Program-made: the position numbers and the translations under genes | Part shown: piece by piece, positions 3,050 through 45,533 of the stretch | Layout of the letters: every line of letters begins with the position of its first letter | Numbering within the stretch: position 1 is the stretch's first letter | Notes under the pieces: model-generated | Told to the model about the DNA's origin: nothing | The model's database searches: none | Seen by the model: only the letters and a program-made list of their open reading frames with translations | Origin: Pseudooceanicola nanhaiensis DSM 18065 | GTDB lineage: Bacteria > Pseudomonadota > Alphaproteobacteria > Rhodobacterales > Rhodobacteraceae | Length of the DNA: 64,000 nucleotides | NCBI RefSeq assembly: GCF_000688295.1 | Contig: NZ_JHZF01000016.1 | Span: forward strand, 62,001 to 126,000 | Direction: 5' to 3'

Positions 3050-3079
3050 TTGACACCACCCCCCGCGTCGCCCCAAGAT
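3050..3079 (+). promoter_or_regulatory. Candidate sigma-70 promoter for the nrd operon leader
   Basis: A perfect -35 TTGACA (3050-3055) is followed after 18 bp by CAAGAT (3074-3079). This predicts a start about 7 bp later, directly before the first conserved base of the cobalamin aptamer at about 3088. The -10 is weak, so the call rests on the -35 and the placement. Confidence 0.45.
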
Positions 3080-3087
3080 GATGATGC

Positions 3088-3247
3088 TTTGGTGCCTGCG
3101 GGGTGACTCGCGGGAAGAGGGAAGACGGTGCGAAACCGACGCTGCCCCCGCAACTGTAAGCGGCAAGCCGAGGTCCGAATCCACTGGTGCAGACGCGCCG
3201 GGAAGGCGGGCCGAAGCGTCCGAGCCGCGAGCCAGGAAACCTGCCAG
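3088..3247 (+). promoter_or_regulatory. Cobalamin riboswitch in the nrdHI-metE-nrdEF leader
   Basis: Plus-strand aptamer landmarks are all present in order: TTGGTGCC start, GGGAAGACGGTGCGAAACCG, the B12-box core GCTGCCCCCGCAACTGTAA, and the terminal GCCAGGAAACCTGCC. It lies 109 nt before the nrdH ATG. B12 riboswitches in front of B12-independent isozymes (MetE, alternative ribonucleotide reductases) are established; here one leader would control both kinds at once. Expected behaviour is expression when adenosylcobalamin is scarce. Confidence 0.94.
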
Positions 3248-3293
3248 GGCGAGATAGACGACGACCGCGGGCGGAGGGCCCGGGCGCGTGACA

Positions 3294-44426: not shown

Positions 44427-44452
44427 GGAACCCCCGGTGCACTTGCGGCGTT
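44427..44452 (+). promoter_or_regulatory. EcfG promoter of the small membrane-protein gene
   Basis: GGAAC (44427-44431), 17-bp spacer, CGTT (44449-44452): a perfect match, ending 35 bp before the ATG at 44488. Confidence 0.72.
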
Positions 44453-44487: not shown

Positions 44488-44835
44488 ATGGCCGAACACC
44501 ACTATCACGAAACCAAAGAGGTTCGTCCCGCATCCACCGGCACCAGCACCGGCACCATCGCGTTCATCGTCGGCGGCCTCGTCGTCGCGGTCGGCCTCAT
44601 CCTGTTCTGGGTCTTCGGCGGTTCGGACATCGAGACCGGCGCGGCCGGTGGCGGCACCGATGTCGAGATCAACGCAACCTCCGACAGCTCGGCCGGCGCG
44701 GCCGCTGACGAAGGCACCGACACCGGCGCGGCCGCAACCGCGGACACCGGCTCGTCCGACGCCGCTGCCGGCAGCAGCGCGACGACCGGCGATTCGGGCG
44801 TTGCGGCAACGGCTGGCGCAGACAGCGGCAACTGA
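44488..44835 (+). CDS. Small membrane-anchored Ala/Gly/Thr-rich stress protein
   Basis: 115 residues. A His-rich N-terminus (AEHHYHETKEV), one membrane helix (IAFIVGGLVVAVGLILFWVFGG, ~29-50), then a low-complexity tail of Ala, Gly, Ser, Thr and Asp that should project into the periplasm. No known domain. The ATG follows GGAGG, and a perfect EcfG promoter lies upstream, so induction in general stress or stationary phase is expected. Confidence 0.72.
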   Translation: MAEHHYHETKEVRPASTGTSTGTIAFIVGGLVVAVGLILFWVFGGSDIETGAAGGGTDVEINATSDSSAGAAADEGTDTGAAATADTGSSDAAAGSSATTGDSGVAATAGADSGN

Positions 44836-44903: not shown

Positions 44904-44974
44904 TTTGCAACGTTCCCGGCGCGGTTTTGCAAACCCCGGATCGCCTTTGCAAAGCGGCCGTAGCGCCTTTGCAA
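44904..44974. repeat. Four TTTGCAA repeats spaced about two helical turns
   Basis: TTTGCAA begins at 44904, 44926, 44946 and 44968, giving spacings of 22, 20 and 22 bp, so all copies face the same side of the helix; a partial TTTGCA follows at 45001. The core TTTGCAAA is self-complementary. The motif is like that reported for ScfR/RamB-type acyl-CoA regulators (PccR), but the spacing differs. The array lies just upstream of the EcfG promoter of the predicted sRNA and ~230 bp before soxD. Confidence 0.7.
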
Positions 44975-45014
44975 ACTCCGTCCATCGGGGCGCATGATTT
45001 TTTGCAGGGCGGCC

Positions 45015-45040
45015 GGAACTTTCCGTTCGCCTGTGACGTT
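45015..45040 (+). promoter_or_regulatory. EcfG promoter of the predicted small RNA
   Basis: GGAAC (45015-45019), 17-bp spacer, CGTT (45037-45040): a perfect match. Unlike the other copies, it is followed not by a start codon but by ~90 nt and a strong intrinsic terminator, so the product is probably a small RNA. Confidence 0.68.
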
Positions 45041-45046
45041 TCTCCG

Positions 45047-45160
45047 TCACTGCCTGGGAAGATACTGACCCTGCGGGTCTGCCCCCAACGGGATTGCCAG
45101 TTTTCCCTTGTCCCTTACCTGTCCCCTCGGGCGGAGGCTTTGAGCCTCCGCCCCTTTTTT
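45047..45160 (+). ncRNA. Predicted EcfG-dependent C-rich small RNA (GsrN-like architecture)
   Basis: A transcript of about 110 nt is bounded by a perfect EcfG promoter and an intrinsic terminator with a T6 tract. Inside, GACCC-TGC-GGGTC (45067-45079) makes a 5-bp hairpin; the rest is an open C-rich stretch with several CCC runs (GCCCCC, TTTTCCC, GTCCC, GTCCCC) able to pair with Shine-Dalgarno sequences. No start codon with a ribosome site precedes the terminator. The plan resembles Caulobacter GsrN, an EcfG-class-controlled C-rich sRNA; homology is not claimed. Alternatively it is an attenuated leader of soxDAG. Confidence 0.6.
45129..45160 (+). terminator. Intrinsic terminator upstream of soxD
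   Basis: GGGCGGAGGCT (45129-45139), loop TTG, AGCCTCCGCCC (45143-45153), then CTTTTTT: a perfect 11-bp stem with a T6 tract, the most classical terminator in the window. It lies 44 bp before the soxD ATG. Confidence 0.9.
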
Positions 45161-45203: not shown

Positions 45204-45533
45204 ATGCTGCTTCTTGAATGTCCCTATTGCGGCGTCGCCGGGGAAGAGACCGAATTCCACGGCGGCGGCGAGGCGCATCTCAAGCGCCACGGGCCCGAGA
45301 GCTCGGATGCGGATTTCGAGGGCTATCTCTTCCATCGCGAGAACCCGAAGGGCGTGCATCTCGAACGCTGGCGGCATGTGAACGGCTGTGGCAAGTGGTT
45401 CCACGCGGCGCGCTGCACGCGCACGCTCGAGGTCTTCGGGACCTACACGGCGCAATGCTCCGAACCGCCGCAGGAGATCCGCGACAAGATCAGTGCGAAA
45501 CGTCCCGGCTGGACGTGGCGGGAGTTCTCGTGA
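45204..45533 (+). CDS. soxD: Sarcosine oxidase delta subunit SoxD
   Basis: 109 residues with the zinc-binding start LLECPYCG and the conserved ENPKGVHLERWRHVNGCGKWFHAARCT block. It binds zinc and stabilises the heterotetramer. First gene of soxD-A-G; because a strong terminator lies 44 bp upstream, the operon needs its own promoter downstream of the terminator, read-through, or regulation at that terminator. Confidence 0.94.
   Translation: MLLLECPYCGVAGEETEFHGGGEAHLKRHGPESSDADFEGYLFHRENPKGVHLERWRHVNGCGKWFHAARCTRTLEVFGTYTAQCSEPPQEIRDKISAKRPGWTWREFS

Follow-up and report, generated by a model that had tools for sequence, protein, structure and literature searches.

A putative EcfG-controlled small RNA gene before soxD in Pseudooceanicola, best read as an mRNA for a small membrane protein that lost its reading frame

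The window, which is the whole 64,000-nucleotide stretch of Pseudooceanicola nanhaiensis DNA that was analysed, carries an EcfG-type promoter and an intrinsic terminator directly before soxD, and the question raised by this locus is what lies between the two and where it came from. A preliminary description had predicted an EcfG-controlled, C-rich small RNA. The present analysis points, with rather more confidence than doubt, to a small-RNA gene of the EcfG stress response that would derive from an EcfG-driven mRNA for a membrane protein of approximately 50 aa between soxB and soxD and would act in trans as an antisense RNA. The features of the locus, in window coordinates, are as follows.

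44427 to 44452, plus strand: promoter of the upstream paralog, EcfG-type GGAAC-N17-CGTT, whose first G precedes the ATG by 61 nt
44488 to 44835, plus strand: upstream coding paralog of 115 aa, in which one hydrophobic segment was recognised by eye and whose tail is rich in A/S/G/T
45015 to 45040, plus strand: promoter of the small RNA, EcfG-type and exact (GGAAC at 45015-45019, N17, CGTT at 45037-45040)
45049 to 45160, plus strand: predicted small RNA of ~111 nt with its 3' end in the T run
45050 to 45062, plus strand: box 1, CTGCCTGGGAAGA, the conserved RNA 5' end, whose GGGAAGA is able to pair with TTTTCCC of box 2
45063 to 45100, plus strand: variable middle, holding an unconserved hairpin, at the position of a 52-aa ORF in genomes G003 and G011
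45101 to 45123, plus strand: box 2, TTTTCCCTTGTCCCTTACCTGTC, conserved, in which CCCTTACCTG is predicted to be unpaired and is the candidate seed
45129 to 45160, plus strand: intrinsic terminator of 11 pairs and T6, with two-sided changes at two pairs across species
45204 to 45533, plus strand: soxD, sarcosine oxidase delta subunit, with the start codon 43 nt past the terminator T run

The gene order is soxB, the 115-aa membrane-protein gene, the small RNA, soxD and soxA. The placement between soxB and soxD given in the preliminary description was thus right on the soxD side, but soxB lies one gene further up with the gene at 44488-44835 intervening. The 115-aa paralog reached no Pfam or NCBIfam family above the cut-off. 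The exact EcfG promoter (GGAAC, spacer of 17, CGTT) and the 11-bp terminator with T6 were read directly as had been claimed; the terminator stem at 45129-45153 has 11 pairs, nine of them G-C, and a loop of 3, followed by C and T6 (45155-45160). Together they enclose ~111 nt, the RNA start (45049 or 45050) being placed by promoter spacing and conservation. The claim of ~110 nt free of a reading frame also held, as no long ORF was found inside the RNA; mechanical ORFs cross it, and none was seen, by inspection and not by a formal test, to be kept across species. The hairpin described for the body is present as GACCCTGCGGGTC, but it belongs to the variable middle and lacks conservation; it is the two boxes that are conserved.

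Just upstream of the RNA promoter, the motif TTTGCAA(A) occurs four times at 44904-44975 with spacings of 22, 20 and 22 bases (about two helical turns). The motif had 7 matches on both strands against 1.25 expected, a number reached in 0 of 100 shuffles, and the array was absent from the same place in 11 relatives checked; we take it to resemble the sites of short-chain fatty acyl-CoA regulators (PccR/RamB). The window also holds a pair of cobalamin riboswitches that lie back to back, one on the minus strand (2747-2943) and one on the plus strand (3073-3262).

The promoter string by itself is weak evidence, since an exact match is not rare. GGAAC-N15-19-CGTT had 5 matches in the window against 1.77 expected, with 3 of 100 shuffles showing as many, and GGAAC-N16-17-CGTT had 85 matches genome-wide, compared with 31 when reversed. 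What sets the promoter above chance is that a GGAAC-type site is present at the same gene in 21 of the 22 Pseudooceanicola genomes. Twenty of these sites precede soxD, and the 21st, in G007, lies near sodB with AGTT for CGTT (by eye). In the ten species where the gene has no ORF, GGAAC is kept in 10/10 and CGTT in 9/10, the exception being G006 with TGTT. Box 1 begins 35 bases past the first G of GGAAC in all ten as well as in G003 and G011.

The genome has phyR, nepR and an ECF sigma gene adjacent to one another, which supports the earlier assignment of the promoter to the EcfG type: nepR is beside phyR, the sigma gene is next to nepR, and EcfG-type sites are found on both strands between nepR and phyR. 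NepR was identified by Pfam, PhyR by Pfam and NCBIfam, and the ECF sigma gene by models not named EcfG. The remaining genus genome, G020, has two soxD loci, neither with a GGAAC-type promoter, and gave no NepR match, while G014 has the RNA and no NepR match in an assembly that is 66% complete.

The locus was found by blastn in 13 of the 22 genus genomes. Mean pairwise identity among the ten ORF-less species was 94% for box 1 and 95% for box 2, compared with 60% for the 100 bases upstream, 48% for the middle, 57% for the stretch before soxD and 61% for the promoter spacer. These ten species were found through the boxes, and a separate pass over the genus soxD loci was also run. Both boxes were present at every genus locus with a promoter before soxD and without an ORF (G008 being read from L007), and the separate pass found no promoter lacking both the ORF and the boxes.

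A homolog search, proposed in the preliminary description as a check, was carried out with a covariance model built from the ten ORF-less RNAs. The model scored at least 50 bits in 14 of 22 genus genomes, namely the ten ORF-less species, which match by construction, and four loci of the form with an ORF at 50-54 bits. Five more genus genomes had a match at E ≤ 0.01 with a best score of 34.6 bits or less, at the ORF-form gene in G002, G018, G009 and G010 and at SorX in G020. Among 295 family genomes, 54 had a match at E ≤ 0.01 and only two, both drawn from Pseudooceanicola, scored high; the best score outside Pseudooceanicola was 36.1 bits. None of 15 outside-genus matches inspected contained either box 1 or box 2 in full, the nearest being L038 with CTGCCTGG and CCCCTACCT, and presence of the RNA throughout the family was rejected on this score and this inspection. 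The exact 21-base pattern of box 2 was found in seven named records of a genome-contig collection: five Pseudooceanicola (P. batsensis among them), one Oceanicola sp. and Primorskyibacter flagellatus. By model and pattern, the putative small-RNA gene is found strongly only in Pseudooceanicola, and the suggestion of an RNA particular to this lineage agrees with its limitation to one lineage within the sample of 295 family genomes and with the 21-base pattern.

In the minimum-energy folds, GGGAA or GGGAG of box 1 with up to three further bases pairs with the UUCCC end of UUUUCCC in nine of the ten ORF-less RNAs, and the tenth (G012) shows a variant of this stem. In all ten predicted folds CCCUUACCUG is unpaired and lies 5' of the terminator, consistent with the exposed CCC-rich stretch of the preliminary description. 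Two-sided changes across species support the terminator and occur only there; none was seen in the helix between the boxes, so that this helix is predicted from energy and conservation.

No Rfam family reached its threshold at the window locus. The RNA shares with suhB/mmgR (RF00519) and SorX (RF02784) a C-rich stretch before a G+C-rich terminator, and sub-threshold matches were obtained with both, but membership in either family is very improbable. For suhB the score was 25.4 bits at the window locus and 29.0 bits at the best of 13 loci, below the gathering score of 41; sites elsewhere in Pseudooceanicola genomes, unrelated to this locus, reach 23-32 bits. SorX gave 21 bits at two relatives and at most 21.4 bits at these loci, below its gathering score of 46.6, and SorX proper exists separately in the genus at 54-56 bits. 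When nine loci with weak model matches were put to Rfam, four were above the SorX threshold and two more matched SorX below it. The four (L092, L096, L087 and L049) belong to three genus members and one family member.

A close parallel is GsrN of Caulobacter, which, in the available part of the source, has a C-rich loop in its 5' part that pairs with G-rich sites and a promoter rule of GGAAC and CGTT at a spacing of 15-17; its relatives were found by BLASTn only in Caulobacteraceae, usually near ecfG-nepR-phyR, C. crescentus excepted (PMC5869019). The present RNA is likewise ~100 nt, with a general-stress sigma promoter (exact and conserved GGAAC/CGTT, spacing of 17) and an exposed C-rich stretch. 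It differs in that its gene is in the sox region, on contig 16 of the draft assembly while nepR is on contig 15, in that its unpaired C-rich stretch is not a 5' loop but lies 3' of the stem, between stem and terminator, and in its homology, through position, promoter and the boxes at the flanks, to a small-protein mRNA. Because genome place and architecture differ, the RNA was set apart from GsrN on these grounds, and the kinship with GsrN suggested earlier was not upheld. A GsrN-like mode of action with the C-rich stretch as antisense is proposed by analogy.

The form with an ORF suggests where the RNA came from. Ten genus genomes (G002, G003, G004, G009, G010, G011, G015, G018, G019 and G021) carry GGAAC-N17-CGTT before soxD. 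Behind this promoter lies an ORF with its ATG 61 bases downstream of GGAAC; its product of 50-55 aa has a single hydrophobic segment and ends in an acidic tail, for example EPEIQIDLP. An eleventh ORF form is the gene near sodB in G007, whose ATG is also 61 bases after GGAAC (by eye) and whose ORF is followed by TGTCCCTTACCTGTC. The 52-aa ORF of G003 and G011 sits exactly between the boxes, in the order box 1, ORF, box 2 and terminator, an arrangement that by its sequence is intermediate between the mRNA and the ORF-less RNA. Neither CTGCCTGGG nor TCCCTTACCTG was found in the ORF form of G002, G004, G009, G010, G015, G018, G019 and G021. The ORF-less RNA shares its promoter and 3'-UTR with this homologous mRNA, and its best reading is an EcfG-driven mRNA from which the ORF has been lost. 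This mRNA ancestry is a new point that the preliminary description had missed.

Each of the ten ORF-less species, like G003 and G011, has the longer paralog upstream. Its promoter (GGAAC, YGTT) with the ATG 61 bases after GGAAC was found in 8 of the 10 ORF-less species and in G003, the distance in G011 being 64 bases; the pattern gave no promoter site in G016 and G017. For the remaining eight ORF genomes that have a soxD locus, the pattern picked up no long paralog over a distance of 1.5 kb.

Across the wider family, the 50-aa protein as query matched 47 of 295 genomes. Among the best 30 loci, 27 had an EcfG-type site upstream by a pattern that also allowed spacers of 15-18 and TGTT. Twenty of these 27 sites were 58-61 bases before the ATG chosen by script, and among the other seven, L199 and L208 show an ATG at 61. 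By neighbourhood, 27 of the best 30 loci were near soxB or soxD and three near sodB only. NepR was matched in 42 of the 47 protein-positive genomes compared with 97 of the 248 other family genomes (Fisher P 6e-11, uncorrected for relatedness). The small membrane proteins themselves, without a name so far, are ~50-120 aa long with a LAFILGAVVVVLAG-like core (loci L194-L223) and lie beside soxB/soxD or sodB; a curated Pfam or NCBIfam cut-off was reached by 0 of 6 proteins of this type. In some relatives within the family (loci L196, L210 and L220), no terminator was seen by eye between the EcfG-linked ORF and soxD, so that the EcfG transcript could run into soxD and the stress promoter may also drive soxDAG there.

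By this distribution the coding form looks old and its EcfG link general, and loss of the ORF is therefore the likely direction of change. The number of losses is less clear from the trees. The rpoB tree placed 9 of the 10 ORF-less species together in a group that also contains G020, and G001 stood separately on a branch without support. In the Sox protein tree rooted on relatives, from which G007 and G020 were left out and to which the SoxB part added only 44 columns, the ORF-less species did not form one clade, and more than one loss, or a different history, is therefore possible. Deletion between short AGACGG repeats, one ahead of the ORF start and one at its end, may have removed the ORF. 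When join points were scanned with two parents and six ORF-less RNAs, these repeats were often part of the best joins, although not in every pair, and repeat-mediated deletion is thus offered as a conjecture.

The proposed mechanism starts from an ancestral EcfG-driven mRNA for a membrane protein of ~50 aa between soxB and soxD. In the downstream copy of ten of the 22 species the ORF would have gone, while the promoter, 5' end, 3'-UTR and terminator would have remained. Under stress, PhyR would free EcfG from NepR and the freed EcfG would transcribe the RNA; box 1 would fold onto UUUUCCC, and the exposed CCCUUACCUG would pair in trans with G-rich mRNA sites. Pairing with ribosome-binding sites, as the preliminary description had envisaged, received no support in two limited tests. 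GGTAAGGGAC-N0-14-ATG, which places the long seed complement ahead of a start codon, had 9 matches in the 22 genomes (three at the RNA locus and six elsewhere) against 17 for the reversed control. For the long paralog, soxD and soxA (start sites from 12/12, 12/12 and 7/12 genomes, respectively), pairing of the RNA with the region around the start was no better than for single-base shuffles, with a lowest z of -1.1. In G006 and G008, a membrane-protein gene, apparently the same in both (L255 and L251, ~1501, minus strand), starts within GGGGTAAGGGACATG, a 10-base complement of the candidate seed; this is a weak lead, the overall count being at or below chance.

The main rival to a trans-acting RNA is a cis element only, in which an EcfG-driven, early-terminated transcript insulates or attenuates soxDAG with no job in trans. 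The position of the terminator, which ends 43 nt before soxD and follows box 2 in 10/10 ORF-less species, would suit such an element, as would the family relatives without a visible terminator between ORF and soxD. Insulation needs only a terminator, however, and the 94-95% identity of the boxes is left unexplained; in G007, moreover, the ORF form with box 2 adjoins sodB and not soxD. A cis role alone is rather unlikely. Even less probable is a pseudogene in decay, a gene that once encoded the small protein and still keeps its promoter and ends through recent common descent. The missing ORF, the coding paralog upstream and a middle that is free to vary are what such a remnant would show, but decay would not spare near-invariant boxes beside sequence of ~50-60% identity, nor a GGAAC kept in 10/10 species.

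A further alternative, tentatively possible and compatible with the best explanation, is a dual-function ancestor in which the RNA role predates the loss of the ORF and the mRNA of G003 and G011 serves as message and regulator alike. In these two genomes the ORF has a box on either side, and G007 has TGTCCCTTACCTGTC downstream of its ORF, whereas the eight ORF-form genomes without either box sequence speak against it and imply that the RNA role was gained within the genus or lost there.

Known RNAs offer partial parallels to an mRNA-derived regulator. In the available part of the source, Type I 3'UTR-derived sRNAs are transcribed from an internal promoter that lies inside the ORF or directly behind it, MicL being driven by a stress sigma factor (PMC7821165). 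As far as that part goes, MicL-type RNAs resemble the present one as trans-acting RNAs with a pairing region from an mRNA 3'-UTR and a stress sigma factor, features proposed here, but differ in that here the mRNA's own promoter would make the RNA, the ORF being missing. SgrS/SgrT is a dual-function RNA with an ORF and a pairing region, and some lineages have one or the other. The present case is similar in both respects but differs in that the ORF encodes a membrane protein found family-wide and the coding form looks older by outgroups. No title among the matches listed in the literature search describes an mRNA-to-sRNA conversion of this kind (PMC13192938 and PMC7821165, each in the part available). 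The searches likewise found nothing on EcfG with small RNA in Rhodobacteraceae or on sarcosine oxidase with EcfG, and the titles found for Pseudooceanicola small RNA concern Argonautes, salinity and coral bacteria.

Overall, the origin of bacterial small RNAs is hard to see because they change fast. Judged by sequence, living species include all three forms: a plain mRNA, an mRNA that carries the RNA boxes, and an RNA without the ORF. It is an evenly balanced proposal that a stress-induced regulatory RNA arose here by ORF loss in a small-protein mRNA, the protein job remaining with the upstream copy and the RNA job falling to the downstream copy. Since a single genus holds coding, intermediate and non-coding forms under the same kind of promoter, the step from message to regulator could be tested by exchanging the forms between species. 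In addition, an EcfG-linked small membrane protein without a name is widespread in the family beside the sarcosine oxidase genes. Finally, the RNA may represent a post-transcriptional arm of the general stress response in Rhodobacteraceae.
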